Notes under the pieces: generated by a model
Database searches by the model: none
The model's input: only the letters and a program-made list of their open reading frames with translations
Told to the model about the DNA's origin: nothing
Shown here: piece after piece, positions 363 to 41,372 of the stretch
How positions within the stretch are numbered: position 1 is the stretch's first letter
How the letters are laid out: every line of letters begins with the position of its first letter
Assembly: GCF_000379965.1 (NCBI RefSeq)
Contig: NZ_KB904335.1
Coordinates: forward strand, 1 to 64,000
Reading direction: 5' to 3'
DNA from: Hoylesella nanceiensis DSM 19126 = JCM 15639
GTDB taxonomy: Bacteria > Bacteroidota > Bacteroidia > Bacteroidales > Bacteroidaceae
Length of the DNA: 64,000 bases
Translations under genes and position numbers: made by a program

Positions 363-1517
363 AAATTCTCTCTCTATTATTAATTAATGTGATACAAAAA
401 CTTTTTATCATGAGGTGAAGTCTTCAAGACTTTCCTAACGCCACTCTATTCCGTAGATTTGAATAAAGAGCTACACATAATGTATGTTTTGTTTCGATTT
501 AAAACAAAATGGTGTCAACTACTAAAAAGAATGAAAGAAAAACAATATTTCAGTAGAGTTGTTAGCGAAAATAGGGAAAATGAAAATTTTTTACAAGCAA
601 AAAAGCAAAAGAAATTGTTTCTATAACAAATCTTAACACTAAAATTGCATAAATCTATTAAATCTCGATATTTATGCAATTTACATACAGAAAGAGCCTA
701 CTTGTGTGATGTTTGTAATAAATTGAAAGCTAAGAGTGTGTTTATTTTGATTTTCTTCTATAAAATATTGAAAATAAAATAGTATTCGTTGTGAATTTAA
801 ATTGCATATTTATTCTGTTAAGAGCTTTTGTTGTCGGTTTAAAGGGCTTTTTTATTGCGAATAAAGATAATACTTGTTAAAATCAAGTTAGTTTGTATTC
901 GTTTCTCGATTGTTGACGAAATGCAATGGAAAGGTAGAACTTTGGCATTTATATAGTCGACGTGTTGCAGATTGAAAGCTATTGAGTTAAGGCAGAAAAG
1001 TGACAGAAAACGTAAAACATTCATATTCTTTTGTTTACAATGCTCATTCCTTCGCTTTTCAAAAGCATTGATATTGCACTGCAAAAACATTGATATTGGT
1101 GTGTAATTGCATAGCTTTTATAGTGCAAAAGCATTGAGTTGAGAATCTAATTCAAAAACCTTTCCAACGCAATCGAAAAACAACCCCAAAGAACTAACAA
1201 CGAATGTTGGAATAAACTAATAAGAATAAGCGATAGAAGGGTATTGGGGTAGCGAAGTAAAATAATGATAAAACTATCTATATTTTTATCGATTTTTTGT
1301 GTACTAATCGTATTAAATATGTATATTTGCATGTTGTTTGTTCTTGATGTCGGTAAAAGTGGTAGATAATTATCACTCAACGAAGTAAAGAATGTAATAC
1401 AAAGAGTAGATAAAAAATATGTTTTGTAAGCTCTTTTATATTTCAACTTGAGCAATAAAAACTTGTTGTATACAAGCAGAAAATAACCATTAATTACGCA
1501 AAAGAAAGCACACGAAG
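363..1517. other. Long divergent intergenic region (SusC-like / dsbD)
   Basis: I see no convincing gene in this space. It holds an AT-rich stretch, an inverted repeat (AATTGCATAAAT at 643-654 against its complement at 670-681, 15-nt loop), the first 22-bp-period repeat array (1061-1141) and a -7 box TATATTTG at 1322-1329. That box has TTTG 22 bp upstream and could drive dsbD with a leader of about 180 nt. Two reverse ORFs here (839-1090 and 1147-1455) lack family resemblance and run through the array or the promoter, so I do not call them. Confidence 0.5.
1061..1141. repeat. 22-bp-period palindromic repeat array A (4 units)
   Basis: Four 15-bp units start at 1061, 1083, 1105 and 1127, exactly 22 bp apart: AAAAGCATTGATATT, AAAAACATTGATATT, AATTGCATAGCTTTT and AAAAGCATTGAGTTG. 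The 7-bp spacers are GCACTGC, GGTGTGT and ATAGTGC. The array lies upstream of the putative dsbD promoter and outside any gene. Confidence 0.85.
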
Positions 1518-3569
1518 ATGAAAAAAACTATCTCTATGGCGCTATTATTGCTTATTGCAATATTCGCTAACGCACAGATGGCAACCCCAGTGAAGTCTTC
1601 TTCACAGTTAAAAATGGGTAAAGGCGCAGAAGCAGAAATGCTTTTTACGCTTACAATTGAGCCTAATTGGCACGTTTATTCAACCAATTTGGGTTCTGGA
1701 GGACCAACTGAAGCTGCCTTGAAGTTTGACAAAAAAGACGGAATTGAGCTTGTTGGTGGTTTAAAAGCAGTGGGCAAAGAAATTAGTAACTTTGACCAAA
1801 TGTTCGGAATGAACCTTCGTTATTTCGAAAACCACGTAACATTCGTTCAAAAAATTAAGTTTACTAAGCCCGAATACACCATCGATGCTTTCTTAGAGTA
1901 TGGTGCATGTAGCGACAAAATGTGTCTTCCTCCTTCTGAAGTTGCATTGAAGAAGAACGGAAAAGCACCCGTTACTGCGGCTGCTGACGCTACAAAAGAC
2001 GTAAAAAAAAACGAAAGTGAGATAGAAAAAGACGCTGAAACGCCTGAAACGGTGACTGCATTGCCCGCAGATAGCGTTGTTCCTGCAAAGGTAGACACCT
2101 CTTCGGGCGTTGCAAGTGGAGATCTTTGGACTCCCGTTGTGAAAGAACTTCAGGCAAAAGACGGCGTTAGCGACATCGCACAACAGTCTATTTTTTACAT
2201 CTTTTGCATGGGATTCTTGGGCGGATTGTTGGCACTTTTCACACCATGTGTATGGCCAATTATCCCTATGACCGTTAGTTTCTTCCTCAAAAGAAATAAA
2301 GATAAAAGCAAAGGATTGCGTGATGCAATAACCTATGGTATTTCTATTGTGGTGATTTATGTCGCATTAGGCTTGGTTATTACATCTATATTTGGTGCAA
2401 GTAGACTAAATGATTTGGCTACAAATGCGATATTCAACATCGTGTTCTGTGCGCTTTTAGTTGTATTTGCACTGTCTTTCTTTGGCTGGTTCGAGATAAA
2501 ACTTCCCGAAAAATGGGCTAACTCAGTAGACAATAAAGCCAATAACACAAGTGGATTGATATCTATCTTCCTCATGGCTTTCACCCTTTCGTTGGTAAGT
2601 TTCTCTTGTACAGGTCCAATTATTGGCTTCCTTTTGGTGCAAGTAAGTACAACTAACAGCATAGCAGCACCCGCAATTGGTATGTTTGGCTTTGCTCTTG
2701 CACTTGCATTGCCCTTCACTTTGTTTGCATTGTTCCCATCTTGGCTCAAACAAGCACCCAAATCAGGTAACTGGATGAACACCATTAAAGTTACATTGGG
2801 TTTCATTGAGCTTGCATTCGCATTGAAATTCTTCTCAGTTGCAGACCTTGCTTATGGTTGGCACTTATTAGATCGTGAGGTGTTCCTTGCTATTTGGATC
2901 GTAATATTCGGTATGTTGGGTCTTTATCTCATTGGAAAGCTTAAGTTTCCAAGCGACCTTGTGAATGGAGAAGATAAGGCAATGCCCGTTCCTGCGATAG
3001 CTCTTGGTATGGTATCTCTTGCCTTTACCGTTTATCTTGTACCAGGATTGTGGGGCGCACCCGTTAAAGCTGTAGGTGCTTTTGCGCCTCCTATCAATAC
3101 ACAAGACTTCAACTTAGATACCAAACAGGTACATGCTGCATACAAAGATTATGAAGAAGGAATGGCAGCAGCTAAGCAATTGGGTAAGCCAGTGATGATA
3201 GATTTCACAGGATTTGGCTGTGTTAACTGTCGTAAGATGGAGGCTTCGGTATGGACCGACCCACAAGTTGCAGCTAAGTTAACCAACGATTATGTCCTCA
3301 TCTCTCTCTTTGTAGACGATAAGACACCACTTAAAGAACCTATTGTCGTTACAGAAAACGGACAAGAGCGCAAGCTTCGCACAATAGGAGATAAGTGGAG
3401 CTACCTTCAAAGAGTTAAGTTTGGTTCGAACACTCAACCTCAATATGTTGGACTCGACCACAACGGAAAACCTATTACTGGCTCATATAGCTATAAAGAA
3501 GATATTCCTGCCTACTTAGATTTCCTTGATAAGGGTCTTGAAACCTTTAGAAAAGCGCAACAAAAATAG
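1518..3569 (+). CDS. dsbD: DsbD-like thiol:disulfide interchange protein
   Basis: This is a three-part transmembrane reductase that carries electrons from cytoplasmic thioredoxin across the inner membrane to periplasmic thiol proteins. A signal peptide ends near residue 19. An N-terminal DsbD-alpha-like domain contains C131 and C136 (GACSDKMCLPP). After a low-complexity linker (about 155-205) comes a membrane domain of about eight helices with the paired cysteines C244 (FTPCVWPIIP) and C364 (SFSCTGPIIG). The C-terminal thioredoxin-like domain has C568-V-N-C571 (GFGCVNCRKME). All three cysteine pairs are present, so the relay should work. The 683 residues are longer than the E. coli enzyme but usual for Bacteroidota. 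It is transcribed alone and followed by a strong hairpin. Confidence 0.92.
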   Translation: MKKTISMALLLLIAIFANAQMATPVKSSSQLKMGKGAEAEMLFTLTIEPNWHVYSTNLGSGGPTEAALKFDKKDGIELVGGLKAVGKEISNFDQMFGMNLRYFENHVTFVQKIKFTKPEYTIDAFLEYGACSDKMCLPPSEVALKKNGKAPVTAAADATKDVKKNESEIEKDAETPETVTALPADSVVPAKVDTSSGVASGDLWTPVVKELQAKDGVSDIAQQSIFYIFCMGFLGGLLALFTPCVWPIIPMTVSFFLKRNKDKSKGLRDAITYGISIVVIYVALGLVITSIFGASRLNDLATNAIFNIVFCALLVVFALSFFGWFEIKLPEKWANSVDNKANNTSGLISIFLMAFTLSLVSFSCTGPIIGFLLVQVSTTNSIAAPAIGMFGFALALALPFTLFALFPSWLKQAPKSGNWMNTIKVTLGFIELAFALKFFSVADLAYGWHLLDREVFLAIWIVIFGMLGLYLIGKLKFPSDLVNGEDKAMPVPAIALGMVSLAFTVYLVPGLWGAPVKAVGAFAPPINTQDFNLDTKQVHAAYKDYEEGMAAAKQLGKPVMIDFTGFGCVNCRKMEASVWTDPQVAAKLTNDYVLISLFVDDKTPLKEPIVVTENGQERKLRTIGDKWSYLQRVKFGSNTQPQYVGLDHNGKPITGSYSYKEDIPAYLDFLDKGLETFRKAQQK

Positions 3570-3578
3570 GCTCATTGA

Positions 3579-3655
3579 TTGATGAAACGAATGTATATCC
3601 CGCTCGATTCTTATATAAAGAAGACAGAACCCGCATTCGTTTCATCAATTGTTTT
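3579..3655 (+). terminator. Hairpin terminator after dsbD
   Basis: TTGATGAAACGAATG (3579-3593) pairs perfectly over 15 bp with 3634-3648 and is followed by TTGTTTT. The 40-nt loop is unusually long for an intrinsic terminator. It starts 10 nt after the dsbD stop. Confidence 0.7.
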
Positions 3656-3693
3656 AAATAGACTATCTATAAGAAGTTATTTTATTCGAAAAT

Positions 3694-3774
3694 AAAAGCA
3701 ATGTTTTTGGTGTGTAATAGCAGTTCTTTTAGCATGCAAAAGCAATCCTTTTACAACCTAAAAGCAATTCTTTT
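3694..3774. repeat. 22-bp-period palindromic repeat array B (4 units)
   Basis: Units start at 3694, 3716, 3738 and 3760: AAAAGCAATGTTTTT, AATAGCAGTTCTTTT, AAAAGCAATCCTTTT and AAAAGCAATTCTTTT. The 7-bp spacers are GGTGTGT, AGCATGC and ACAACCT. The array lies between the dsbD terminator hairpin and the next gene, cyuA. Confidence 0.9.
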
Positions 3775-3852
3775 TAATTCGACTATCTTTTCAATTGCCT
3801 TTCGAACCAATTCAGAAACATTATAATCAACACTTTAAATTAGCCTTAAACA

Positions 3853-5145
3853 ATGATTAATGCAGAAACAAGAGCACAGATTATCAACCTTATTAATAAA
3901 GAAGTTGTGCCTGCAGTGGGCTGTACTGAGCCTATGGCAGTGGCATTGTGTGCCGCAAAAGCAGCCGAAGTGTTGGGCTGTAGACCGCAAAAAGTGAGAG
4001 CACAGCTAAGTGCAAACATCCTAAAAAACGCCATGGGAGTGGGTATTCCTGGCACAGGTATGATTGGATTGCCTATCGCAATTGCCTTAGGAACATTGAT
4101 AGGGAAGAGCGAATATCAGTTAGAAGTGATTAAAGATCTCACTCCTGAGACCTTAGAAGAGGGCAAAGCCTTTATCAAAGAGCAACGAATAACGATCTTA
4201 CGAAAGAGCAATATAGAAGAAAAACTATATATAGAGGTAGAGAGCTCTACTGAAACAAGCACGGCAACAGTCATCATTTCTTGCGCACATACTAATATTG
4301 TGTATGTCGAAAAAGATGGAAATGTGTTGTTAGATAATCGCACTACTCGCTCGGAATCATGTGAACAGAAAGATATTTCGCTTGATTTAAAGTTGGTTTA
4401 CGACTTTGCAACCACTGCTCCCGTAGGTGAAATAGACTTCATTCTCAAAGCCAAAGACTATAATTTAAAGGCTGCCGAAGATTCGCTTAAAGGCAATTAC
4501 GGCCATTGTTTAGGTAAAACTATGGACCGTCCGCTATCTCATGGCATCTTTGGAGATAGCATTTATTCGCACATTATCGCCAAAACTGCATCGGCATGTG
4601 ATGCTCGTATGGGGGGAGCAATGATACCAGTGATGAGTAATTCAGGCTCAGGAAACCAAGGAATATGCGCTACTAACCCCGTAGTTGTATTCGCTTTAGA
4701 GAACAAAAACACCGAAGAGGAATTGGTGAGAGCCTTAATTTTAAGTCACTTAACCGCAATTTATATCAAACAAAGTCTTGGAAAGCTTTCCGCTTTGTGT
4801 GGTTGTGTGGTGGCTTCGATAGGCAGTAGCTGTGGAATTACCTACTTGATGGGAGGCGACTATGATAAGATTTGTCACTCAGTGAAGAACATGATAGCTA
4901 ATTTAGCAGGTATGTTGTGCGACGGAGCCAAGCCAGGTTGCTCGCTAAAGATTAGCTCTGGCGTTTCAACCGCATTGCTTTCGGCTGTATTGTCAATGGA
5001 AGGTCGTTTCGTTACCGCTGCAGAAGGCATCGTAGATGATGATGTAGATAAGTCTATTCGCAACCTAACCAGTATTGGAGCCAATGCAATGAACCTCACA
5101 GACGAGATGGTTTTGAACATTATGGTGAACAAAAACGGTTGCTAA
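3853..5145 (+). CDS. cyuA: L-cysteine desulfidase / serine dehydratase-like protein (CyuA/YhaM family)
   Basis: Members of this family (formerly UPF0597, serine dehydratase alpha-chain fold) cleave L-cysteine to pyruvate, ammonia and sulfide with a [4Fe-4S] cluster in the cytoplasm. The 430 residues match the family length. The hallmark VGCTEP is at C24. The probable cluster ligands are C327 (GSSCG), C356 and C363 (CDGAKPGC), and the conserved glycine-rich ends are intact. No dedicated cysteine transporter or regulator lies beside it. It sits after dsbD, a periplasmic thiol reductase, but the two appear to be separate transcription units. The family is secure. Cysteine rather than serine as substrate is inferred from characterised relatives. 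Confidence 0.85.
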   Translation: MINAETRAQIINLINKEVVPAVGCTEPMAVALCAAKAAEVLGCRPQKVRAQLSANILKNAMGVGIPGTGMIGLPIAIALGTLIGKSEYQLEVIKDLTPETLEEGKAFIKEQRITILRKSNIEEKLYIEVESSTETSTATVIISCAHTNIVYVEKDGNVLLDNRTTRSESCEQKDISLDLKLVYDFATTAPVGEIDFILKAKDYNLKAAEDSLKGNYGHCLGKTMDRPLSHGIFGDSIYSHIIAKTASACDARMGGAMIPVMSNSGSGNQGICATNPVVVFALENKNTEEELVRALILSHLTAIYIKQSLGKLSALCGCVVASIGSSCGITYLMGGDYDKICHSVKNMIANLAGMLCDGAKPGCSLKISSGVSTALLSAVLSMEGRFVTAAEGIVDDDVDKSIRNLTSIGANAMNLTDEMVLNIMVNKNGC

Positions 5146-5183
5146 GTAATTATAATTCCTATTTATTGGTAAGCTGATTTTCT

Positions 5184-5340
5184 TATATTTGCCCGCTGTC
5201 TTCGTGCCGATAAGCTTATACTCCTATTAGATTAATAAGGTGTATGCTTAATAATAAGAAGGAGGAATGATGGCGAATGAAAAGAAATAAAGAGATAAAA
5301 CGATTGCGTTGCTAAGAAATTAGTAGCGCAATTTTTATTT
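5184..5340 (+). ncRNA. Candidate small RNA or short leader-type transcript
   Basis: A Bacteroidota -7 box TATATTTG (5184-5191) is followed within 150 nt by a terminator (ATTGCG..TGCTA pairing with TAGTAGCGCAAT, 5304-5333, then a T-rich tract). No long ORF lies between. Very short ORFs follow an unusually good Shine-Dalgarno AAGGAGG at 5259-5265: MMANEKK (5267-5290) and MKRNKEIKRLRC (5277-5315), whose stop lies inside the terminator stem. There is no clear -33 TTTG. It could be an sRNA, a leader peptide or merely an extended 3' end of the preceding gene. Confidence 0.3.
5304..5340 (+). terminator. Intrinsic terminator
   Basis: An imperfect 11-12 bp stem (ATTGCGTTGCTA / TAGTAGCGCAAT) is followed by TTTTTATTTT. 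It lies 160 nt after the cyuA stop, so it may end cyuA or the short transcript proposed above. Confidence 0.65.
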
Positions 5341-5383
5341 TGTGGCAATGCCTTTGAAAGCGGGCGGTGTAGGGTAGGGATGT

Positions 5384-5464
5384 AAAAGCAATGCTTTTGA
5401 TTGGTAATTGCAGTGCTTTTAGAGGGTAATAACATTGCTATTACGAGCCAATATCATTGCTTTT
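5384..5464. repeat. 22-bp-period palindromic repeat array C (4 units)
   Basis: Units start at 5384, 5406, 5428 and 5450: AAAAGCAATGCTTTT (a perfect palindrome), AATTGCAGTGCTTTT, AATAACATTGCTATT and AATATCATTGCTTTT. The 7-bp spacers are GATTGGT, AGAGGGT and ACGAGCC. Its left flank GGTGTAGGGTA (5366-5376) is shared with array I. Confidence 0.9.
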
Positions 5465-6138
5465 GCACTGTCATTGTTTTGTGCTGTTTAATCGTTCTTG
5501 TGTCTTGTTTAATGCAGTGGAAAAGCCTTTGTGGTGCAAGAGTTCTTCCTTTCTTTTTAGTATAGATTGTTTTTGTCTTCTATTAAGGAATTAACTCATT
5601 TGTAAATAGATTTTTAATAAATTTTGTTTCATAATAGTTTGTTTTTTACATTCTACTTTCTTTTAAATAATAAAGATACTATGTTTGAGCTACTTAGCGT
5701 TATTTTGTTCTCTGTTTTATTGTTAATTACTTGCGTATTGATGTAAATCAAGTTTTAAATAATAAGAAATAGCTATCTAATTCTTTTACTTTGAAACTTA
5801 GTTCTCAAATTTATTGCTATTTAATACCTAAAAAGTTGGCTTCATACAGTTTTTATACAAGAAACAGTTAATATATGTTTAAATTGGAATGTAATTGCAA
5901 CTTTCGCTTGCTTTGTTCGTCGCTTTTCCCTATTTTTGTAAAAATCGAAAAGAAGACTGTTTTAAATTTCAATTTCAAAGAATACGTTGTTTATTTATAA
6001 TGAAACGTAAGAAATTGTTTGAGAGAGTATAAACTTGGATGTAAAAACTATTGTAAAGGCTTATTCTGTTTGTGAGTTGTAGCATAAAAAGATAAGTCCC
6101 ACATCATTTATTATTATTTGTTATAAACCAAAAAGATT

Positions 6139-9100
6139 ATGAGAAGAAAACTAACATTGATTTTTTTGAGTCTCTTTGTCGTCGTTTCTGCAGCTATTGC
6201 ACAAACAACCGTAAAGGGATTAGTACTCTCTTCGGAGGGGAATGAACCTGTGATAGGTGCTTCAGTAAAGGTGGTTGGCGCAGATAAAGGCGTCATTACA
6301 GACACTGATGGTAATTTTTCGATAAGCGTAAACAGCTTAGACGAACGCTTGGAAGTATCATATATTGGTATGATTACTAAAATAGTGAAAGCCTCAAACA
6401 ATTTAAAAGTAGTGTTAGATCCCGATCATAAACAGATAGATGAAGTGATTGTGGTGGCTTATGGTAAGCAAAAAAAAGAAGCATTTACGGGTGCAGCAGG
6501 TGTAGTAGGTAGCGAAACACTTAGCAAACGTGTTGTTTCTAATGCCTCAACAGCCCTTGCTGGTAGTGTAGCCGGTGTGCAAATGTATAGCACAAACGGT
6601 GCTCCTGGAGCAGATCCAGTCATTCGTGTTCGTGGTATTGGCTCTATTTCTTCAAGCAATAAACCTCTTATTATATTAGATGGTGTACCTTATGATGGTG
6701 ATATCTCATCAATCAACCCTTCTGATATCGCTTCAATGACCGTATTGAAAGATGCTGCTTCGAACGCTATCTATGGTGCTCGTGGTGCTAATGGTGTTGT
6801 GATGATTACCACAAAGAATGGTAATACAGGCGATGCTAAGATTACTTTCGATGCTAAATGGGGTACAAACAGCCGCTTAATTCCACAATATGACATTATA
6901 AAAGACCCAGGACAGTATGTTCAAACACAGTTCAAGAGCCTTTATAATTCGCAACTTTACGCTGGACAATCAGCGGCAGATGCTTACGCTTACGCAACAG
7001 CTAGTATCTTTGATGCCAACAATGGTGGTTTAGGTTACCCTATTTACACTGTTCCAACAGGTGAAAATCTAATTAAAGAAGATTTCAGTATCAATCCAAA
7101 TGCAAAGCTTGGATATTCTGATGGCACCTATTATTATACTCCAGACGATTGGTATAGCGCAGCTATTAAATCAAGTTTCCGTCAAGAGTACAATGCTTCT
7201 GTGTCTGGAAAGACTCCACGTTTGCAATATTATGCAGGTGTTGGCTACCTTGGAGATACAGGTTTGATTCCTAATTCAGAGTTCAAACGCTACTCAGCAC
7301 GTGTTAATGCAGACTATCAAGCAAAGAAATGGTTGCGTATTGGTACCAATCTTGCTTACGCATATACCAACACTCGTTTGGCAGCTGACCAAGATTCAGA
7401 GACGGGTTACACCTCTGCTGGAAACGTATTCTACATCTCTAATAATATAGGTCCAGTGTATCCTCTTTACGTTCGTAATGCAGATGGCTCAATAAAGATC
7501 AACCCTGCAACAGGAAATCCTGTGTACGACTCAGGTAATAACACTAACTATAGCCGTGGAAACTTCGCTGGTAATGCTGTACGTGATGTGTATTATAACA
7601 AAGGAAACTCTGATCGTGATGTGCTAACAAGCAAGGTTTATGCTCAAATAACACCAATCGAGCATCTTGTTTTAACTGCAAATATAGCAGCAAACCTTGT
7701 TAATCAACGTAAAAACGTGTTGTATAGCATCTTTGCTTCTGAAACAAATGCAGATGGAGTAGCAACAGTTTCTACTAAAAGAGCATTCGGCGTGAACAAC
7801 CAATACTTAGCAGAATATAGCAATACATTCGGCAAACACAGCTTAAGTGCATTACTTGGATATGAAAAGTATCGTTATACTTACAAATATTTAAGTGCAT
7901 CTAACGATCATCTTTACAACCCATTTATTAGCGAATTGAACAATGCTGCGAACGCACCTCAAAGCCGTCCAGAGTCATATGTAGACGAATACATGTCTCA
8001 AGGTATATTCTCTCGTTTGCAATATGATTACGAAGACAAGTATTTCGTTAGTGCTTCGTTCCGTAGAGACGCTTCTTCTGTGTTCCACAAAGATCACCGT
8101 TGGGGTAACTTTGGTAGTGTTGGAGCTGCTTGGTTGATAACAAAAGAACCATTTATGCAATCGCTTACATGGTTGAACTCATTGAAGCTAAAAGCAAGTT
8201 GGGGTAAACAAGGTAACGATGCGTTGTTGAATCCAACTACATCAAAGCGTCAATATTATGCTTATCAAGACTTTTATGCACCTTCATATAGCAACGGAAA
8301 CTATTCATTAGTAATGACTTATAAAGGTAATAAAGATCTAACTTGGGAAACATCTTACAGCTTTAATACTGGACTTGAGTTCAGTGTGTTGAACAATCGC
8401 ATAACAGGTAGTATTGATTTCTTTAGCCGTAAGACCGTAGACCTTATCTATAATAAGCCAGTTCCACCATCTTCTGGTATCGTAACAGGCTCAATTCCAA
8501 CCAACATCGGTAGCGTTTTGAACACAGGTGTAGAGGTTGATTTGAACGGAGTGATATTAAAAGGAAACGATTTGCTATGGACTGCAAATCTAAACCTTAC
8601 TCACTATAAGAATAAGATCTTATCGCTTTCACCTGAGTTAGAGGCTCTTGGAGGCCAAAAGGGTTCTGTATTTATTCGTAAAGTGGGCGGTTCACTTGCA
8701 AATGCTTATCTAAGAGAGTACGCAGGAGTAGATCCTTCAACTGGAGAAGCACGCTATTATAATGATCCCGACAATGGAGATTATAGCTATGCAACATCTT
8801 ATAACGCTGCAACACGTACCGACTTAGGTGACCTTTTACCTAAACTTTACGGCGGATTCGGCACTCGTCTCGAGTTTAAGGGCTTCGATTTCTCTGCAAT
8901 GTTCTCGTATCAGTTGGGCGGAAGAATATATGATGATGGCTATGCAATATTCATGCACACTGGATCTGGATCACGAGTGGGATACAATTGGCATAAAGAT
9001 ATCTTGAATGCATGGACTCCTGAGAATACAAATACAAACATACCACGTCTAAGTGCTGGTGATAATGTAACAAACAGCGCATCAAGTCGCTTCTTAATTA

Positions 9101-9339: not shown

Positions 9340-9355
9340 ATAGGGGGAAATTATA

Positions 9356-10999: not shown

Positions 11000-11030
11000 A
11001 TAGATATTTATTTGGTTTATATATAAAGTA

Positions 11031-11073
11031 GAGTTACTTGCTAATCGCATAGATTTAGCAGGTAACTCTTTTT
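11031..11073 (+). terminator. Intrinsic terminator of the susCD operon
   Basis: GAGTTACTTGCTAA (11031-11044) pairs with TTAGCAGGTAACTC (11055-11068), with one mismatch, and is followed by a run of T. It begins 32 nt after the SusD stop. Confidence 0.85.
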
Positions 11074-12655: not shown

Positions 12656-12736
12656 AAAAGCATTGTTTTTGTAGAACGAAAGCAATGCTTTTATCATGTA
12701 AGCTCAATGCTTTTACGGCACAAAGTCTATGTAATT
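12656..12736. repeat. 22-bp-period palindromic repeat array D (3 good units plus 1 decayed)
   Basis: Units start at 12656, 12678, 12700 and 12722: AAAAGCATTGTTTTT, GAAAGCAATGCTTTT, AAGCTCAATGCTTTT and the decayed AAAGTCTATGTAATT. The 7-bp spacers are GTAGAAC, ATCATGT and ACGGCAC. It lies between convergent dgt and the DUF2795 gene. The rest of this gap (12522-12976) holds only the structured 3' region of the DUF2795 transcript. Confidence 0.85.
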
Positions 12737-17267: not shown

Positions 17268-17348
17268 TTTTGCAATGCTTTTGAATAACAAAAGAAGCCA
17301 TATTACATCGTAAAAGAAGCCCAATTGCGCAGCAAAAGCATTTCAATT
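17268..17348. repeat. 22-bp-period palindromic repeat array E (4 units)
   Basis: Units start at 17268, 17290, 17312 and 17334: TTTTGCAATGCTTTT, AAAAGAAGCCATATT, AAAAGAAGCCCAATT and AAAAGCATTTCAATT. The 7-bp spacers are GAATAAC, ACATCGT and GCGCAGC. It lies between the gltX terminator and waaA. Two units have the centre GAAGCC and pair less well than those of other arrays. Confidence 0.8.
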
Positions 17349-19927: not shown

Positions 19928-20008
19928 AAAAGCATAGCTTTTACAGCGCAAAAGGATTGCTTTTACAACCTAAAAGCATTGATATTAGAGTGTAAAAGTA
20001 GGGCTTTT
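19928..20008. repeat. 22-bp-period palindromic repeat array F (4 units)
   Basis: Units start at 19928, 19950, 19972 and 19994: AAAAGCATAGCTTTT, AAAAGGATTGCTTTT, AAAAGCATTGATATT and AAAAGTAGGGCTTTT. The 7-bp spacers are ACAGCGC, ACAACCT (identical to one in array B) and AGAGTGT. It lies after the tRNA-Phe terminator, in the convergent gap before radC. Apart from this array I see nothing functional in 19881-20226. Confidence 0.9.
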
Positions 20009-22692: not shown

Positions 22693-22773
22693 AATAGCAT
22701 TGCTTTTGAGTTGTAAATGTAATGCTTTTGCACTTAAAAAGCGTTGCTTTTACATTCTAATTTGCATGCTTTT
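22693..22773. repeat. 22-bp-period palindromic repeat array G (4 units)
   Basis: Units start at 22693, 22715, 22737 and 22759: AATAGCATTGCTTTT, AAATGTAATGCTTTT, AAAAGCGTTGCTTTT and AATTTGCATGCTTTT. The 7-bp spacers are GAGTTGT, GCACTTA and ACATTCT. It lies in the divergent efp/rpmH space (22626-22991), 67 nt from the efp start. A reverse -7 box TAACTTTG for efp is at 22859-22866, so here the array would lie in the efp leader if that box is used. Confidence 0.85.
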
Positions 22774-25812: not shown

Positions 25813-25893
25813 AAAAGCATAGCTTTTGATGGCTCATAGCAATGCTTTTGCAGCCTAAACTCAATGCTTTTACAGTCTAAAAACATAGCTTTT
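25813..25893. repeat. 22-bp-period palindromic repeat array H (4 units)
   Basis: Units start at 25813, 25835, 25857 and 25879: AAAAGCATAGCTTTT, CATAGCAATGCTTTT, AAACTCAATGCTTTT and AAAAACATAGCTTTT. The 7-bp spacers are GATGGCT, GCAGCCT and ACAGTCT. Decayed units seem to continue on the left (for example CATTGCTTTTTC near 25740). It occupies the gap between the SufT-like gene and the ComEA-like gene, both on the reverse strand. Confidence 0.88.
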
Positions 25894-32251: not shown

Positions 32252-32294
32252 GATGTAAAAATTAATTGTATTAATGATAATGTTTTTAGATGGT

Positions 32295-32330
32295 AGCCTC
32301 GTTGTTCGTGATGAATGACGAGGCTTTTTT
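32295..32330 (+). terminator. Intrinsic terminator
   Basis: AGCCTCGT (32295-32302) pairs perfectly with ACGAGGCT (32318-32325) and is followed by TTTTT. Confidence 0.85.
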
Positions 32331-32401
32331 GTGCCATCTCCTTTCTTACTTCATCATCGTTCAAAAGCCTTTGCTGTTCAAAGGTGTAGGGTATGTTTCT
32401 T

Positions 32402-32482
32402 AAACTCATTGCTTTTGGCAGGTAATAGCATAGCTTTTGGGGTGCAATAACATTGCTATTATCTTGTAAAAGCACCGCTTTT
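32402..32482. repeat. 22-bp-period palindromic repeat array I (4 units)
   Basis: Units start at 32402, 32424, 32446 and 32468: AAACTCATTGCTTTT, AATAGCATAGCTTTT, AATAACATTGCTATT and AAAAGCACCGCTTTT. The 7-bp spacers are GGCAGGT, GGGGTGC and ATCTTGT. The left flank GGTGTAGGGTA (32383-32393) is shared with array C. It lies between the preceding terminator and the mutY promoter. Confidence 0.9.
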
Positions 32483-32647
32483 ATTGATGTTATCAAAATC
32501 TGTTTCATTAAAATAACCGAATGATTATTCCCTAAAATTCTACTTTTCCAAACGAAAAAGCAAGAATCAAAAAGTGCGTTTTACCACAATCGAAAGCCCG
32601 CTTTGCTCATCACTTCTAAAGAAAAAACATTATCTTTGCGGTTAAAT

Positions 32648-33709: not shown

Positions 33710-33787
33710 AAAGAGGCTCATCTTATTGCTCTTTTAAAGCATCGAACCACTAAAAAGAAAGCAAAAGAAATAGAAGAACAGCATTAT

Positions 33788-34417: not shown

Positions 34418-34520
34418 ATAGGTGCAAAATAGCCCTTTGTATCTAAAGAATAATGAGTTAATAGTATAAATAATATAATAAAAAGTACAATAAAGTAGCA
34501 ATCAAAGCGTTATTAATAAC

Positions 34521-35462: not shown

Positions 35463-35581
35463 ATAGATATTCTTCCTTTATAAAACAGCCATTATCAGCT
35501 CATTGATGTGCCAAAAGCGCATCGAAGCAAAACAATAGACAAACAACAAAACGAACAATATAAAGAGATTAAATAATATAA

Positions 35582-37033
35582 ATGAGAAAACAAGTAACAT
35601 TCCTTTGGACATTTATTGCAGCCATAGCTCTTAGTAGCTGCTTTGGTAGTAAGAATGCCACCACAAATTCGAAGCGAGGTGGTGAGGTTGTTGGAGTGAG
35701 TGGTCGCCCTTTTAGCGAGCCAACGCCTTATGGTATGACTAAAATATCACGTGGCTACCTTCACATGGGTATTGATAAACAAGACTCATTGTGGGGCATG
35801 AAAACTCCAGTTAAAGACATATCAGTAGATGGTTTCTGGATGGATGAAACAGAAGTGAGCAACTCTAAATATAAACAATTTGTGATGTGGGTTCGTGATA
35901 GTATTCTAAGAACTCGCCTTGCAGATCCTGCTTATGGTGGAGATGAAACCTATTTGATTACAGAAGACAAAGAAGGTAACCCCATTTCGCCACGTATTAA
36001 CTGGAAAAAGCCACTTCCTCGTAAGCCAAACGAAGACGAAAAGCGTGCTTTTGAAAGTCTTTATAAAACCAATCCCGTTACAGGTGAGAAGCTTTTAGAT
36101 TATCGTCAGTTGAATTATAGATATCAAATATACGATTACACCACAGCTGCTTTGCGTCGTAACCGATTCAATCCAAGTGAAAGAGATTTGAATACCGACA
36201 ACGAAGGTGCTCCTGTTGAAACCGTAATGATATCTAAAGATACTGCTTATGTTGATGACGAAGGTCGTATTATCAGTGAAACCATCAACCGAGAGCTAAC
36301 AAGTGAGTGGGACTTCTTAAACACTTACATTGTGAATGTTTATCCCGATACAACCTGTTGGGTAAACGATTTCCGCAATTCAGACAACGAAGTGTACCTC
36401 AGAAACTATTTCAGTAACCCCGCATATAACGACTATCCAGTGGTAGGAGTTACATGGGAACAGGCTAATGCCTATTGTGCTTGGCGCACAGATTACCTCT
36501 TAAAGGGGTTAGGAGCAGAGGCAAGATATGTTCAACGCTATCGACTTCCAACCGAAGCAGAATGGGAATATGCTGCAAGAGGAAAGAGTGGAGGTGAATT
36601 TCCATGGGAAAACGAGAACGTAAAGAGTGGAAATGGCTGCTTCTATGCTAACTTTAAGCCCGATAGAGGTAACTATACGAAAGACGGAAACTTGATAACA
36701 AGTCGCACGGGCATATATTCTGCGAACTCAAATGGGCTCTATGACATGGCAGGTAACGTGGCCGAATGGACTGGAACCATCTATACTGAGGCGGGAGTAG
36801 ATGCTATGAACGATCTAAATCCACAGCTATCGTATAACGCAGCCAAAGAAGATCCATACAAACTAAAGAAGAAAAGCGTTAGAGGAGGATCGTGGAAAGA
36901 TCCCGAATCGTATATAAGAAGCGCATGGAGAACATGGGAATACCAAAATCAACCACGCTCTTACATTGGCTTTAGATGTGTAAGAAGCTTAGCAAATACC
37001 ACAAGTGTGAAACAAAAAAAGAATAAAAAGTAA
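35582..37033 (+). CDS. gldK: Type IX secretion lipoprotein GldK/PorK
   Basis: An outer-membrane lipoprotein that forms a periplasmic ring with GldN in the type IX secretion machine. The lipobox is ALSSC with the lipidated C20. The rest is a formylglycine-generating-enzyme-like (SUMF/FGE) fold without catalytic use: RLPTEAEWEYAARG, GLYDMAGNVAEWTG, SVRGGSWKDPESYIRSAWR and IGFRCVR. The 483 residues are typical. One nucleotide separates its stop from gldL, so the two are translationally linked. Confidence 0.95.
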   Translation: MRKQVTFLWTFIAAIALSSCFGSKNATTNSKRGGEVVGVSGRPFSEPTPYGMTKISRGYLHMGIDKQDSLWGMKTPVKDISVDGFWMDETEVSNSKYKQFVMWVRDSILRTRLADPAYGGDETYLITEDKEGNPISPRINWKKPLPRKPNEDEKRAFESLYKTNPVTGEKLLDYRQLNYRYQIYDYTTAALRRNRFNPSERDLNTDNEGAPVETVMISKDTAYVDDEGRIISETINRELTSEWDFLNTYIVNVYPDTTCWVNDFRNSDNEVYLRNYFSNPAYNDYPVVGVTWEQANAYCAWRTDYLLKGLGAEARYVQRYRLPTEAEWEYAARGKSGGEFPWENENVKSGNGCFYANFKPDRGNYTKDGNLITSRTGIYSANSNGLYDMAGNVAEWTGTIYTEAGVDAMNDLNPQLSYNAAKEDPYKLKKKSVRGGSWKDPESYIRSAWRTWEYQNQPRSYIGFRCVRSLANTTSVKQKKNKK

Positions 37034-37034
37034 T

Positions 37035-37799
37035 ATGACTGAATATAGTAAATACAACATTGTTTATCGTTTGCAAAAGTGGATAGATAGCGTTCCAGGC
37101 CAAACTTTCTTGAACTATGCTTATAGTTGGGGTGCTGCTATCGTTATCTTAGGTACTCTTTTCAAGCTAACTCACTTGCCAGGAGCTAACATTATGCTCT
37201 TTATTGGTATGGGAACAGAGGTTTGTGTGTTCTTTATTTCAGCGTTCGACCGTCCTTTCGACAAAACAGCTGATGGCTTAGAACTACCTACTCACCCTGA
37301 TTTAGATGAGGAAGTGCCAGCAGAACAAAATGCAAGTAAACCTGTAAATACAACAGTTCACACTGCAAATGCAGGCTTTGCATCTCAAAATGTAGCTTTT
37401 GTGGCTCCTCAAAGCGTTGCTCCTGCAGTGTCAGAGCAAACCATCTCTTGGACAGAACAACAGCAAACACAAACTCCAGAGCTATTAGATGCACAACAAA
37501 GATATGTTACTGAGTTGAATAACTTAAGTGAAATACTATCTAAAGTATCTGCTCAAAGCGAGAGATTGGCACGAGATAGTGAAGAAATAGATAATCTAAA
37601 TCGCACTATTACGGGTATTACTAAGGTGTATGAGATGCAATTAAAGAGTGCAAGTAAGCAGATGTCGACAATCGATGACATCAATGAACAAAGCGCAAAG
37701 ATGGCAAGTCAGATAGAACAACTCAACAAAATATATACAAGAATGATTGAGGCCATGACTGTTAATATGCGTGCTTCTGGCGCACCTACAATTGAATAA
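37035..37799 (+). CDS. gldL: Type IX secretion motor protein GldL/PorL
   Basis: The inner-membrane motor stator of the T9SS. Two N-terminal membrane helices are seen (about 22-40 WGAAIVILGTLFKLTHLPG and 43-65 LFIGMGTEVCVFFISAF), with the acidic residue between them (E in GTEVCVF) likely to take part in proton use. A Pro/Ala/Gln-rich linker leads to a long coiled coil in the cytoplasm (LNNLSEILSKVSAQSERLAR and onward). The 254 residues are normal. It pairs with GldM, which starts 35 nt downstream. Confidence 0.93.
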   Translation: MTEYSKYNIVYRLQKWIDSVPGQTFLNYAYSWGAAIVILGTLFKLTHLPGANIMLFIGMGTEVCVFFISAFDRPFDKTADGLELPTHPDLDEEVPAEQNASKPVNTTVHTANAGFASQNVAFVAPQSVAPAVSEQTISWTEQQQTQTPELLDAQQRYVTELNNLSEILSKVSAQSERLARDSEEIDNLNRTITGITKVYEMQLKSASKQMSTIDDINEQSAKMASQIEQLNKIYTRMIEAMTVNMRASGAPTIE

Positions 37800-37834
37800 C
37801 ATCGCAATACATAAACACTATTTATATAATAGGT

Positions 37835-39385
37835 ATGGCAATAAAGAAAAGACCAGTATCTCCTCGCCAGAAGATGATCAATCTTTTGTATGTCGTTTTA
37901 ATGGCAATGCTAGCCCTCAACGTATCAACTGAGGTGTTAGAGGGCTTTTCTGTGGTAGAAGAAAGCTTGAATAGAACCACAGAGAACGCAACAAAAGAGA
38001 ACAGTTCGATATACGATAGTTTCGCAAAACAATTGCAATCGAACCCCGAAAAGGTGAAGGCATGGTTTGATAAGGCTACAAGTGTAAAGCAGATGAGCGA
38101 TTCATTGTATAATTTTGCACAAGAATTGAAAGTCGCTATCGTGAAAGAAGCCGACGGAAAAGACGGCTCTTTAGATGCAATAAAGAATAAAGAAGACCTT
38201 GAATCGGCTGCTCATGTAATGCTTGCACCAGGCTCTGGCAAGGGAAAAGCATTGTTCAACGCCATTAATAGCTATCGAACCCGAATCGTATCGATGGTGA
38301 ATAATGCCGATGAAAAGGCGATAATAGAAAGCAACCTCTCTACCATTGTACCAAAGAATGCCCGCTCTCTGGGTAAAAACTGGCAAGAATATATGTTCGA
38401 AGGCATGCCCGTTGCGGCTGCAGTCACCCTTTTATCGAAGCTACAAAGCGATGTTCGCCATGCAGAAGGAACCGTATTACATTCTTTAGTGGCAAATGTT
38501 GATGTCAAAGATATCAGAGTGAACAAGCTAACTGCATTCGTTATTCCCGAGAGTAGAACCGTTATGACAGGTGATAGATTTGTTTCTCGCATCGTAATGG
38601 CGGCAGTTGACACCACACAACAGCCCGAAATATATATCGGAGGCAGAAAAGTTGCATTGAAAAACAATATCTATGAGTTCGCAGCAGGAGGTGTTGGAGA
38701 ACACTCTTTCAGTGGTTATATCACCATGAAAGATGGTAATGGCAGTATTATTCGTCGTGACTTTACACAGAAATACAATGTTGTTGCGCCCTCAGCTACC
38801 GTTTCTGCAGACTTAATGAACGTGCTTTACGCAGGATTTGATAATCCAATAAGCATCAGTATACCTGGAGTTTCACTCCAAGCCGTTACTGCTTCGATGA
38901 CAGGAGGAGCTTTTCGCTCTGTAGGTATGGGCAAGTTCATAGCTAAACCCGCCGCTGTTGGTAGCAATGTAACCATCAATGTGGCTGCAAAAGGAGAGAA
39001 CGGAGTGCGCCAAGTGGGTAAATATACCTTCCAAGTGCGTAAGCTTCCCGATCCAATTGCCTACATCTCGCTTGGAACCGACCGCTTTAAAGGAGGCGCA
39101 ATCGCTAAAGGTGCATTGTTAGGAGTGAACAATTTGAGTGCAGCAATAGACGATGGACTATTAGATATCAAGTTTAATGTCACCTCATTCGAAACCGTTT
39201 TCTTTGATAATATGGGTAATGCGGTGCCTATGACCTCTGATGGTGGCCACTTTTCAGCACGCCAACGAGACGAGTTTAGAAAGCTATCACGCAACAAACG
39301 CTTTTATATTTCTCGCATAACAGCCGTTGGTCCTGACGGAATAAGCCGCAAACTACCTGCATCAATGGAGGTAATTGTAAGATAA
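37835..39385 (+). CDS. gldM: Type IX secretion motor protein GldM/PorM
   Basis: GldM is anchored by one N-terminal inner-membrane helix (MINLLYVVLMAMLALNVSTE) and extends four periplasmic domains to the GldKN ring, transmitting the motor's energy. The opening KKRPVSPRQKMINLLYVVLM is the family signature. The 516 residues match. The body is beta-rich with an immunoglobulin-like D4 domain at the C-terminus that ends EVIVR. It is followed 32 nt later by gldN. Confidence 0.95.
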   Translation: MAIKKRPVSPRQKMINLLYVVLMAMLALNVSTEVLEGFSVVEESLNRTTENATKENSSIYDSFAKQLQSNPEKVKAWFDKATSVKQMSDSLYNFAQELKVAIVKEADGKDGSLDAIKNKEDLESAAHVMLAPGSGKGKALFNAINSYRTRIVSMVNNADEKAIIESNLSTIVPKNARSLGKNWQEYMFEGMPVAAAVTLLSKLQSDVRHAEGTVLHSLVANVDVKDIRVNKLTAFVIPESRTVMTGDRFVSRIVMAAVDTTQQPEIYIGGRKVALKNNIYEFAAGGVGEHSFSGYITMKDGNGSIIRRDFTQKYNVVAPSATVSADLMNVLYAGFDNPISISIPGVSLQAVTASMTGGAFRSVGMGKFIAKPAAVGSNVTINVAAKGENGVRQVGKYTFQVRKLPDPIAYISLGTDRFKGGAIAKGALLGVNNLSAAIDDGLLDIKFNVTSFETVFFDNMGNAVPMTSDGGHFSARQRDEFRKLSRNKRFYISRITAVGPDGISRKLPASMEVIVR

Positions 39386-39417
39386 TAATATATAGTTGTA
39401 GACTAGAAAAAATAAAT

Positions 39418-40476
39418 ATGATGAAGAAAGTGTTTCTATTTCTCTTTGCAATTGTTTTCACCTCATCGGCATTTGCGCAAGCTCCTGCACGACGAGCACA
39501 GCAAGAACAATCTAAAAGAGCTAATGCAAATAACATTACAACACGTGCTCGTTTGTCCTTTCCAGTGACAGAAAGCCTGCCCGAAGATGTGGTTTGGCGT
39601 CGTGATATCTATCGAGAGTTGAACTTGATGGACGATGCTAATGCTGGATTATACTATCCAACAGAGCCCATTGGCACCCAAATGAACCTCTTTACATATA
39701 TCTTTAAGTTGATGATGACAGGCAACGTAAAGGCTTATGAATATCGTTTAGATGGCAACGAGCATTTCACTGATAGCGCAAGAATAAAGCCTTTGGCTTT
39801 TCTTGATAACTATCACATCTATTATGAGCGTACAGGTAAGGGCATAAGAATAGACGATAGCGATATTCCTTCAAAGGAAGTAAAAGGCTATTACATCAAA
39901 GAAAGCTCTTATTATGATCAGTCTACTGCCACATTCCACACCAAAGTGTTGGCTTTATGTCCTATTATGAAACGTGAAGACGACTTCGGTGATGCTGCAA
40001 CTCCTTATCCTTTGTTCTGGGTTAAGTATGATGATTTGGCGCCATTCCTATCGAAACAGACCATTATGACAAGCAACTTGAACAATGCTGCAGTGATGTC
40101 GGTAGACGATTACTTTACAAAGAATATGTATAAGGGCAAGATTTACAAAACAAACAACATGCAAGGACTCACCATTGCACAATATTGTCCAAACGATTCG
40201 GCTGTTGCTAAAGAGCAAAAACGTATTGAAAGAGAGATTGCAGCATTCGAAAAGAATATGTGGGGTGATGCAGCTAAGAAAGATTCGCTCGATAGTATTG
40301 CTAAAATTGCAAAAGATCAGCCTAAGATAAAGAAGAGAACCAACCGCAGAAGTGGTGAAGTGACAGAGCAAACAGAGGTAAAGAAAAACCGAAGAGCAAC
40401 CATGTCAACTCCTCGTAGCAGTGGTTCTGCAAGAGTAAGTGTGCGCCGTGAACGCCATCTTGTAGACCCTTCATAA
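39418..40476 (+). CDS. gldN: Type IX secretion protein GldN/PorN
   Basis: A periplasmic component that binds GldK and GldM in the outer-membrane ring. A signal peptide ends AFAQ. The body shows the GldN-specific VVWRRDIYRELNLMDDANAG and NAGLYYPTEPIGTQMNLFTY segments. The C-terminus is a basic, low-complexity tail (RSGEVTEQTEVKKNRRATMS). The first two codons are both Met, so the start may be 39418 or 39421. It ends the gldKLMN operon, although a beta-barrel gene follows after 48 nt. Confidence 0.93.
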   Translation: MMKKVFLFLFAIVFTSSAFAQAPARRAQQEQSKRANANNITTRARLSFPVTESLPEDVVWRRDIYRELNLMDDANAGLYYPTEPIGTQMNLFTYIFKLMMTGNVKAYEYRLDGNEHFTDSARIKPLAFLDNYHIYYERTGKGIRIDDSDIPSKEVKGYYIKESSYYDQSTATFHTKVLALCPIMKREDDFGDAATPYPLFWVKYDDLAPFLSKQTIMTSNLNNAAVMSVDDYFTKNMYKGKIYKTNNMQGLTIAQYCPNDSAVAKEQKRIEREIAAFEKNMWGDAAKKDSLDSIAKIAKDQPKIKKRTNRRSGEVTEQTEVKKNRRATMSTPRSSGSARVSVRRERHLVDPS

Positions 40477-40524
40477 AGTGATATTCCTATATAACTCTTT
40501 GTATAACTTATAAATTAAACAACT

Positions 40525-41139
40525 ATGAAAAAGATTTTGTTATTAGGATTAGTAGCTTTTATGGCACTATTCTCTACAAATGCTAATGCACAAGTTACCT
40601 TTGGTGTTAAAGGAGGCTTGAATGTTAGTAGCATGAAACTAAATAGTGAATTATTTTCTGCATCTAATAAAACAGGATTCTTCATTGGTCCTACTGCTAA
40701 ATTCACTCTTCCAATCGTTGGAGTAGGTATGGACGCATCTCTACTTTACGACCAAAGAGAAGTTAAAATAATAGGTAATCGCTTCGACGGAACAACCAAA
40801 TTGGTTCAAAGTCAAATTGTGTTGCCAATCAACTTTCGTTATAGTGCAGGTCTAGGAAGCTTTGCAAACGTTTTTGGTTTTGCTGGTCCGCAGTTCGGTT
40901 TCAACGTAGGTGATAAGTCAAAGACCATCATTCAAGATGTAGCAGACTGGAAATTCAGCAACTCAAACTTTAGTATTAACTTAGGAGTAGGTGCAACTCT
41001 TTTTGAACATCTACAAGTAACAGCTAGCTATAACGTTGCTTGTGGCAAGACTGGAGAGCTTACTCTCGAGCAAGGAGTACAGAGTGTTGTGAAAGGTCGC
41101 AACAGTTCTTGGCAAGTAGGTGCTACTTATTTCTTCTAA
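40525..41139 (+). CDS. Small outer-membrane beta-barrel protein (porin-family type)
   Basis: A 204-residue protein with a signal peptide (cleaved after TNANAQ) and an OmpA/Opa-like barrel: VTFGVKGGLNVSSM at the start and WQVGATYFF at the end, with alternating hydrophobic strands. It belongs to the outer-membrane beta-barrel family (OMP_b-brl_2) often annotated as a porin. It follows gldN at 48 nt and may be read through from the T9SS operon. PorT is a T9SS protein of a similar class, but I see no feature that proves that identity. A terminator follows. Confidence 0.8.
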   Translation: MKKILLLGLVAFMALFSTNANAQVTFGVKGGLNVSSMKLNSELFSASNKTGFFIGPTAKFTLPIVGVGMDASLLYDQREVKIIGNRFDGTTKLVQSQIVLPINFRYSAGLGSFANVFGFAGPQFGFNVGDKSKTIIQDVADWKFSNSNFSINLGVGATLFEHLQVTASYNVACGKTGELTLEQGVQSVVKGRNSSWQVGATYFF

Positions 41140-41205
41140 AGAAGAGGCATAGCACAACTTTAAAGCATATAACAAAGAGCACAAAGTTGGCTCTTTAAAA
41201 CCATA

Positions 41206-41242
41206 AAGGCAATAATCTTATTGAGGTTATTGCCTTTCTTTT
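41206..41242 (+). terminator. Intrinsic terminator after the beta-barrel gene
   Basis: AAGGCAATAA (41206-41215) pairs perfectly with TTATTGCCTT (41227-41236) and is followed by TCTTTT. A second hairpin (AAAGAGC/GCTCTTT) lies just upstream. Confidence 0.8.
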
Positions 41243-41291
41243 GTACAATGTTCAAACGCCTTGTCCGTCTATCATCACGACATAACGTAGT

Positions 41292-41372
41292 AAAAGCACT
41301 GCTATTGCGCCCTAATCTCAATGCTATTACACCTTAAAAGCAATGTTATTGCAATGTAAACTCATTGCTTTT
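41292..41372. repeat. 22-bp-period palindromic repeat array J (4 units)
   Basis: Units start at 41292, 41314, 41336 and 41358: AAAAGCACTGCTATT, AATCTCAATGCTATT, AAAAGCAATGTTATT and AAACTCATTGCTTTT. The 7-bp spacers are GCGCCCT, ACACCTT and GCAATGT. It lies between the terminator at 41206 and the -7 box TACCTTTG at 41487-41494. Confidence 0.88.

Follow-up and report, generated by a model that had tools for sequence, protein, structure and literature searches.

Plasmid iterons recur with a period of about 22 bp, which is also that of the arrays described here; these arrays differ in being scattered over the chromosome, palindromic and mostly made of four units. In Porphyromonas gingivalis, a member of the same order, the BrickBuilt element reportedly consists of short tandem units in intergenic DNA, as the arrays do. 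Unlike the arrays, this minisatellite is placed inside a transposable element by its description (PMC4596501). REP/BIME sequences with their RAYT partners are, like the arrays, numerous intergenic palindromes that are species-specific and regularly grouped, with REP elements carrying a GTAG-type end (PMC2817692), and A-tract phasing, which the A/T tracts of the arrays recall by their spacing near the helical repeat, has been linked to nucleoid organisation (PMC3940949). Lrp-type proteins are described as dimers on regularly placed sites, at intervals of two or three turns of the helix, that form octamers of four dimers and wrap DNA (PMC2995911, PMC3584215, PMC8481266), all of which would suit the arrays, and for the octameric ring of RemA the sites are described as repetitive, poorly conserved DNA, presumably wrapped by the octamer (PMC8481266).

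The window analysed here is a 64-kb stretch of the Hoylesella nanceiensis chromosome, for which a preliminary description had listed ten four-unit arrays with a 22-bp period. All ten were read. In eight of them four units follow one another clearly at 22-bp intervals, with 49 to 54 of 60 consensus matches; the remaining two, D with its weak fourth unit and E with its low score, proved weak (Table 1). At the gathering score, Rfam returned only two tRNAs from positions 1-45000 of the window and left the arrays unmatched, and a plasmid search with positions 1000-5600 gave just weakly similar genes. As stated earlier for this DNA, no named family matches so far as our searches of open papers show.

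Table 1. Arrays in the 64-kb window, with their matches to the consensus and neighbouring genes
Array	Class	Positions	Matches (of 60)	Remarks
A	clear, four-unit	1061..1141	49	dsbD-like gene (1518) starts 376 bp further on
B	clear, four-unit	3694..3774	54	flanked by the dsbD-like gene and a serine-dehydratase-like gene (3853-5145)
C	clear, four-unit	5384..5464	52	beyond the serine-dehydratase-like gene
D	three strong units, fourth weak	12656..12736	49	equal score one unit earlier (12634)
E	weak	17268..17348	41	per-unit matches 11, 9, 9 and 12 of 15
F	clear, four-unit	19928..20008	53	neighbour genes convergent
G	clear, four-unit	22693..22773	51	elongation factor P gene 67 bp downstream
H	clear, four-unit	25813..25893	53	
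I	clear, four-unit	32402..32482	51	precedes mutY-like gene
J	clear, four-unit	41292..41372	50	

A sample of 464 kb consisted of the window and twenty stretches, 20 kb each, from elsewhere in the H. nanceiensis genome. At a score of at least 40 of 60 this sample held 56 non-overlapping four-unit arrays, as compared with none in one dinucleotide-preserving shuffle, and the same scan at periods of 18-21 and 23-26 bp gave two arrays in total, both at period 19. Array density was about one per 8-9 kb (~120 per Mb), and scaling up from the sample gives an extrapolated ~310-320 arrays for the whole genome; array counts depend on threshold and method (52, 54, 55 or 56). The 13-base core occurred 38 times with at most two mismatches, vs. 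5.3 expected and a maximum of 11 in 100 shuffles. Units with at least 12 of 15 matches were spaced at 22 bp in 99 pairs, at 44 bp in 65, at 66 bp in 35 and at 88 bp in two, and every other distance up to 120 bp occurred at most three times. When the count was not forced, exactly four units were present in 38 of 49 runs and none had more than five at that threshold. Across the units of 48 arrays selected as four-unit the mean score was flat (12.2-12.7), and outside it was about 6. A detector of the frame only, with no wording, found 54 arrays at period 22 in this genome, 23 and 16 in the genomes G016 and G010, and 39 in the named loci; for each of the other periods between 17 and 27 its count was four or less, and in dinucleotide shuffles it found none. 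Unit numbers or distances that vary at random, or arrays no more frequent than in shuffled sequence, had been named in advance as outcomes that would speak against the family; they were looked for and were absent in this genome, while elsewhere the number is less strict.

The pyrimidine and purine edges proposed for the unit were borne out in 44 arrays (a purine at position 16 and a pyrimidine at position 22, each in 96%). The palindrome stood only in part: the consensus is symmetric, but individual units avoid symmetry, and both six-base halves were consensus in 10 of 208 units vs. 29 expected, so that the halves are anti-correlated. Halves with an identical variant (3 vs. 4.0 expected) were too few to judge. 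The recurrence of spacer cores turned out to be slight, with 117 distinct ones among 132 spacers. In the profile of this genome, A-rich and T-rich ends are centred at 11-bp steps, and a faint AA/TT preference of the same phase, judged by eye, continues for about two units beyond the arrays. Predicted folding energy was -17.9 kcal/mol for arrays vs. -10.3 kcal/mol for composition shuffles, with no gain over column-permuted arrays (z 0.25); since arrays fold no better than their base composition column by column predicts, the symmetry is not maintained for base pairing. A structured RNA element was rejected on the basis of folding, half-site pairing and Rfam. Hairpin avoidance as the source of the half-site anti-correlation found no support in the folding energies, and directionality of the arrays was dismissed as marginal (p 0.028).

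By the gene calls of our home-made codon-usage caller, 54 of 55 arrays of this genome are intergenic, and they occur in all gene orientations: 13 in 28 convergent gaps, 29 in 111 tandem gaps and 12 in 34 divergent gaps. Median distances were 151 bp to stop codons and 170 bp to start codons. Scattered in this way, at the density given above and beside ordinary genes, the arrays lend no support to the likeness suggested earlier, to iterons or centromere-like sites as these are usually understood. The flanking genes scanned in this genome are mutually unrelated; among those screened for a binder (30 of 88 promoter-side entries, plus seven others), two HU-HIG genes were the sole architectural DNA-binding candidates. 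Arrays in C1 stretches of this genome (GC skew plus to minus) had a mean score of 48.2 vs. ~49.8 (p 0.025), which is probably a base-composition effect. An origin/terminus trend in the arrays of G016 was not evident by eye.

In a motif-free test, 22 bp was the top intergenic repeat lag in H. nanceiensis, G016, G010 and other named Prevotellaceae; the first count for G010 included N runs, which were filtered in a later one. In other Prevotellaceae the frame recurs, and its letters differ by species; Hoylesella buccalis, for one, has arrays at L075. Four units are commonest, less strictly than in H. nanceiensis: at one threshold, four-unit spans accounted for 13 of 23 arrays in G016, 8 of 16 in G010 and 18 of 39 in the named loci, and spans of five or six units for 6, 5 and 10, respectively. 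The detector threshold of 26 was chosen after seeing the data (5th percentile of H. nanceiensis arrays 28.4, maximum of its shuffled intergenic DNA 25.45), and because this detector seeks four units its counts are biased towards four. G001, G006, G010, G014, G071 and G119 also have longer runs. Some near-threshold hits among the 39 in the named loci show the frame poorly (e.g. L130, L136, L097:9315 and L092:7197). Arrays of model R1 were found in at least 47 of 100 genomes, H. nanceiensis included, these counts being lower bounds since 45 candidates were scored per genome; when 35 loci were checked with the detector, two (G008 L058 and G026 L071) held no array at threshold. No arrays were found in 278 kb of other families, nor in G024 (100 kb) and G069 (80 kb), and some genomes may do without them; the motif-free and other-family scans omit G069 L168 (G+C 25%) and two of 20 other-family stretches, shorter than 3 kb.

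Where related species have an array at the same place, 12% of unit positions and 33% of spacer-core positions have changed, in a comparison in which some pairs share arrays and flanks were aligned without gaps (29% different, an inflated value). Together with the same frame in other letters elsewhere, this supports the earlier proposal of selection on geometry. In the pair L146/L147 the spacers are unchanged, and the few differences, 4 among 88 inner positions, belong to the units. Orthologous loci of six window genes carried an array in 8 of 30 cases (five genomes), at the same place only for elongation factor P in G012, where the array lies directly upstream of the gene. The 80 named loci held 57 dsbD orthologs, 49 of them with a sufficiently long upstream gap; four of these gaps scored at least 26 and five at least 24, in two wordings, and H. 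nanceiensis has one too. Positional conservation across species at dsbD and elongation factor P is suggestive, but ortholog tables, with 3 to 10 pairs each, gave no significant association.

We propose, with a probability of about one half, that the array is a composite site for a sequence-specific, oligomeric architectural protein that organises the chromosome. The analysis shows the geometry, the modal count, the intergenic placement, units that are better conserved than spacers and a species wording in a constant frame; the protein, its oligomeric state and the wrapping are inferred. Each 15-bp unit would be occupied by one dimer, and four units would present eight half-sites, 11 bp apart, on one face of ~81 bp of DNA; binding to one face, put forward in the preliminary description, is in our analysis a plausible reading. 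The assembly of four dimers would bend or wrap the DNA about once, and its size would fix both the usual count of four and the period of 22 bp. That ~300 sites adjoin genes of unrelated function, whatever the gene orientation, suggests a role in chromosome architecture. Against the oligomeric binder, a protein that has hundreds of sites on the chromosome seldom changes its words between species, array positions are mostly unconserved and four is no more than the commonest span elsewhere. No binder was found among Lrp/AsnC, RemA, RAYT, HU-HIG or the scanned flanking genes. Only tentatively do we extend the proposal to a nucleosome-like code, in which Prevotellaceae chromosomes would carry hundreds of dedicated sites, each for a single turn of wrapping by a fast-evolving architectural protein whose assembly would set the frame (four dimers, 22 bp), the words being rewritten genome-wide between species.

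Among candidate proteins, a conserved member of the Lrp/AsnC family, the most familiar for such a geometry, fits it, with palindromic dimer sites about two helical turns apart and four dimers per octamer. The single Lrp/AsnC gene of H. nanceiensis is followed after 105 bp by an array and then by a glutamate-dehydrogenase-type gene, and, of seven array-bearing genomes at least 97% complete, six each have one such gene or more. Yet VSGAAIHQR, which we take to be the recognition helix, is identical in eight orthologs of the H. nanceiensis type (64-73% overall identity; H. nanceiensis, G010 and G016 included) while the wordings differ, and a second type is equally constant, with VSRAAIHQR in G010, G016, G070, G100 and G108 and also in G024 and G069. 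H. nanceiensis has the first type only and G100 (99% complete, with R1 arrays) the second only, and the argument from distribution leans mainly on G100; no Lrp/AsnC gene was found in G005 (86% complete), and G063 (81%) has the first type only, its protein being of that type by sequence though the profile score pointed to the other. G024 and G069, in which no arrays were detected, carry two and three copies. With helices invariant while array words change, we consider an Lrp/AsnC binder highly improbable. RemA was rejected (no RemA-like match in 11 genomes; controls matched in 3), as was HU-HIG, whose gene number does not track arrays: array-bearing genomes gave 4 (H. nanceiensis), 6 (G010), 4 (G012), 7 (G016), 5 (G063), 7 (G070) and 13 (G006) matches, and G024 and G069, where no arrays were found, 11 and 22.

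The scattered, intergenic distribution in all orientations, the species wording and the low positional conservation would also fit a REP- or MITE-like repeat, inserted and tolerated between genes, with a different mobile element in every lineage to account for the species wording. Arrays in G093 L070 look young, with near-identical 22-mers, and the array-bearing G010 (2), G016 (3) and G006 (1) have matches to Y1_Tnp, the REP-transposase domain. This domain has no match, however, in the equally array-bearing H. nanceiensis (99.93% complete), G012, G063 and G070; moreover, the spacers are distinct in nearly each unit, so a single sequence has not been copied to make the arrays, the period is fixed and units outlast spacers between species. 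The array consensus lacks a GTAG-type end, and viral contigs gave no match to a strict two-unit pattern, an insensitive search in the H. nanceiensis wording only. We regard a self-spreading repeat as unlikely. The median distances to stop and start codons and the somewhat richer convergent gaps would suit operators that serve a single regulator of genes, or transcription terminators acting in both directions, but tandem, convergent and divergent gaps are all occupied, so that the arrays are neither promoter-only nor terminator-only, their neighbours are unrelated and base pairing is not selected; this explanation, too, seems improbable to us. Protein-free curved DNA, in which phased A-tracts alone matter, agrees with the A/T-rich ends at 11-bp steps in H. 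nanceiensis, where they are in phase with the helix, and in most other wordings. It is very unlikely, since the inner 7-11 bases are well conserved within a genome and differ between species, and curvature would need none of them; conserved inner words and a usual count of four set the arrays apart from phased A-tract DNA. A constant frame with species wording could finally be a signal of self-recognition or DNA exchange in species dialects, comparable to uptake sequences; short uptake words are unlike 81-bp composite sites at the density found here, and we give this reading hardly any weight.

To our knowledge, little is known about chromosome organisation in Bacteroidota, a phylum dominant in the human and ruminant gut. 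The arrays are dense, regular and easy to test, and as a set they imply that a protein assembly is dedicated to them. A ruler that is kept while the words differ in relatives points to a candidate chromosome-shaping protein, and hundreds of sites rewritten with their geometry retained raise the question of how one protein can change its whole site vocabulary.

The preliminary description had claimed ten arrays in the window, each consisting of four 15-bp palindromic units with a 22-bp period and 7-bp spacers. Direct reading and scoring of the sites confirmed eight as four-unit arrays in exact 22-bp register; the remaining two fell short (see table). The core word occurred 38 times in the window vs. 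5.3 expected (up to two mismatches). With up to three mismatches, a strict two-unit pattern matched 133 times in the 2.65-Mb H. nanceiensis genome and 0 times when read backwards. In a 464-kb sample (the window plus twenty stretches of 20 kb each, sampled every 60 kb along contigs C1 and C2), good units lay 22 bp apart in 99 pairs, 44 bp in 65 and 66 bp in 35, with 2 pairs at 88 bp and at most 3 at every other distance up to 120 bp. The proposed period held against shuffled DNA: 56 four-unit arrays scored at least 40/60 vs. 0 in the shuffle, and periods 18 to 26 other than 22 gave 2 altogether. By extrapolation from this sample, the genome would carry approximately 310 to 320 arrays. In the own-genome sample 54 of 55 arrays were intergenic, lying in tandem (29), convergent (13) and divergent (12) gaps, two of which held two arrays each; gaps of at least 100 bp numbered 111, 28 and 34, respectively. 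The neighbours are unrelated genes (dsbD-like, serine-dehydratase-like, EF-P, mutY-like, kdo transferase, RecR, SufE, ribosomal protein S2 and others).

Arrays and related stretches referred to in the text
Location	Source	Observation
12656	window	array; three units strong, the fourth weak
17268	window	array; weak
41400-64000	window, last 22 kb	no array of the scored kind; genes for EF-Tu, L11, L1, L10, L7/L12, RNA polymerase beta and beta-prime
L015:10587-10800	own genome, C2	one convergent gap with two arrays that share a 22-bp phase and are separated by 132 bp; weaker units lie in between
L036:10089-10149	own genome, C8	array flanked by the sole Lrp/AsnC gene and a gene of glutamate-dehydrogenase type
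L070:1501	G093	four 22-mers that hardly differ from one another and share one spacer
L091:5597, L119:2813, L150:10043, L161:947, L092:7200	several Prevotellaceae	22-bp-period palindromes without the AA/TT frame

Unit number is also non-random in the own genome, as had been proposed. When runs were counted over 484 kb without forcing four (seed of two adjacent units scoring at least 12, extension at 10/15 or more), 2, 7, 38 and 2 of 49 had 2, 3, 4 and 5 units. Looser extension gave five-unit runs in 8/49 at threshold 9 and 16/48 at threshold 8 (passed by 5.7% of random positions), along with a few runs of six to ten units. In 48 arrays selected as four-unit, mean unit scores were 12.7, 12.5, 12.3 and 12.2 inside, 6.0, 5.5 and 6.3 before and 6.5, 6.2, 6.4 and 5.7 after the array. 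At one threshold, four was the commonest span in the genomes G016 (13/23) and G010 (8/16) and in loci from named Prevotellaceae (18/39), and five- or six-unit spans made up 6/23, 5/16 and 10/39; at a stricter threshold G016 spans spread over one to five units. Runs of at least five units in L025 (G006), L056 (G119), L062 (G071), L024 (G014), L061 (G010) and L050 (G001) are exceptions to four.

The unit letters (wording) of the own genome were matched in 4 of 35 same-genus relatives and in 0 of 24 genomes of other families, and R1, a search model leaning to this wording, matched at least 47 of 100 same-genus genomes, the own included. In a motif-free test of which distance repeats best in intergenic DNA, lag 22 came out on top in the own genome (46 windows), G016 and G010; across 78 other named loci it also led, with 39 windows, and no other lag exceeded 10. 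It led weakly in G024 (3 windows), but sites there read without the array frame, and scored 0 in G069. A frame-only detector found 54, 23, 16 and 39 arrays of period 22 in the own genome, G016, G010 and the named loci; no other period from 17 to 27 yielded more than 4, and dinucleotide shuffles yielded 0. At least one array, some doubtful, occurred in 25 of 80 named loci; none was found in G024 (100 kb), G069 (80 kb) or 278 kb of other families (18 stretches, 16 genomes). Different wordings occupy the same frame: AAAAGATGACCTTTT in G010, AACTTGCGTCAGATT in G016, AAAAGGGCACCTTTT in Prevotella histicola, AAAAGCGCCTGTTTT in P. aurantiaca, AAGAGACGCCCTCTT in P. veroralis and AAAACGTGCCGTTTT in a GC-rich uncultured species. 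Further ones come from G005, G006, G017, G030, G068, G070, G089, G093, G102 and G108, at loci obtained with R1 and so biased to four units and the own wording. Palindromes of the same period without the AA/TT frame, which include some of the lag-22 sites (L091, L119, L150 and L161 among them), are possibly separate families or chance.

The suggested selection on geometry is supported between related species: in nine comparisons, some sharing arrays, unit positions differed at 66/540 (12%) and spacer cores at 45/135 (33%). Ungapped flanks differed at 311/1080 (29%, inflated by shifts), L080/L102 and L085/L102 being hardly alignable outside arrays; the L146/L147 pair differed in units only. Folding of the arrays was stronger than that of composition shuffles, as expected of palindromes, and equalled that of column-permuted arrays (RNA z 0.25, DNA z 1.06). 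For six array-adjoining window genes, 8 of 30 orthologous loci in five genomes had an array (7 places), the own position being kept only for EF-P in G012. An array lies upstream of dsbD in the own genome and in 4/49 named loci, or 5/49 when the threshold is relaxed; two wordings are represented. The G093 array is apparently young and already at four units; its near-identical 22-mers and the repeated identical spacers of the G016 array L195 suggest that arrays arise by tandem duplication.

The frame built from 44 own arrays, Y-AA-nnn-CA-n-TG-nnn-TT-R, contains the Y...R edges described earlier, with AA and TT at 95-99%, A- and T-tract centres 11 bp apart and no base preference in the spacer middle. 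By eye, a faint in-phase AA/TT preference reaches about two units beyond arrays. The consensus inner triplet stands at three to five of eight half-sites in 43/52 arrays. Two adjacent half-sites, at 11-bp distance, seldom both carry the consensus triplet (z -6.4 vs. within-array shuffles), within units (both halves in 10/208 vs. 29 expected) and also across spacers, a pattern that may reflect selection for sufficient but not excessive binding.

Lrp/AsnC octamers wrap DNA and use sites set at regular intervals of two or three turns (PMC2995911, PMC3584215, PMC8481266); by analogy the array geometry suggests, and would fit, four dimers. The own genome has one such gene, itself beside an array; in seven other 16-20-kb loci a skeleton of the own wording, insensitive to other wordings, found none beside the ortholog. 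VSGAAIHQR, which we take to be the recognition helix, does not vary among eight own-type orthologs whose species differ in wording, and a second type is equally constant (VSRAAIHQR). Only this second type occurs in G100 (99% complete, with R1 arrays); G063 (81% complete) and the own genome have the first alone; none was found in G005 (86% complete), and G024 and G069, where arrays went undetected, have two and three copies. With a motif constant across wordings and gene types that do not follow arrays, Lrp/AsnC is unlikely to be the binder. RemA-like proteins were absent from all 11 genomes searched. The number of HU-HIG genes does not track arrays either; the 30 and 22 matches in G003 and G069 vs. 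4 in the own genome are a lineage-specific expansion. The REP-type transposase domain is absent in the own genome, G012, G063 and G070 and present in array-bearing G010, G016 and G006.

The arrays are a real, widespread class of chromosomal sites. No matching named family was found, as the preliminary description had stated, and the class is undescribed as far as open papers show. As every known kind tested was missing one or more defining features, we call the sites categorically new; sites for a DNA-wrapping protein are, as a general concept, already known. Best supported is a nucleoprotein reading, with each array as a composite site for an oligomeric architectural protein placing four dimers on eight half-sites, and we infer that the arrays act in DNA wrapping and chromosome architecture.
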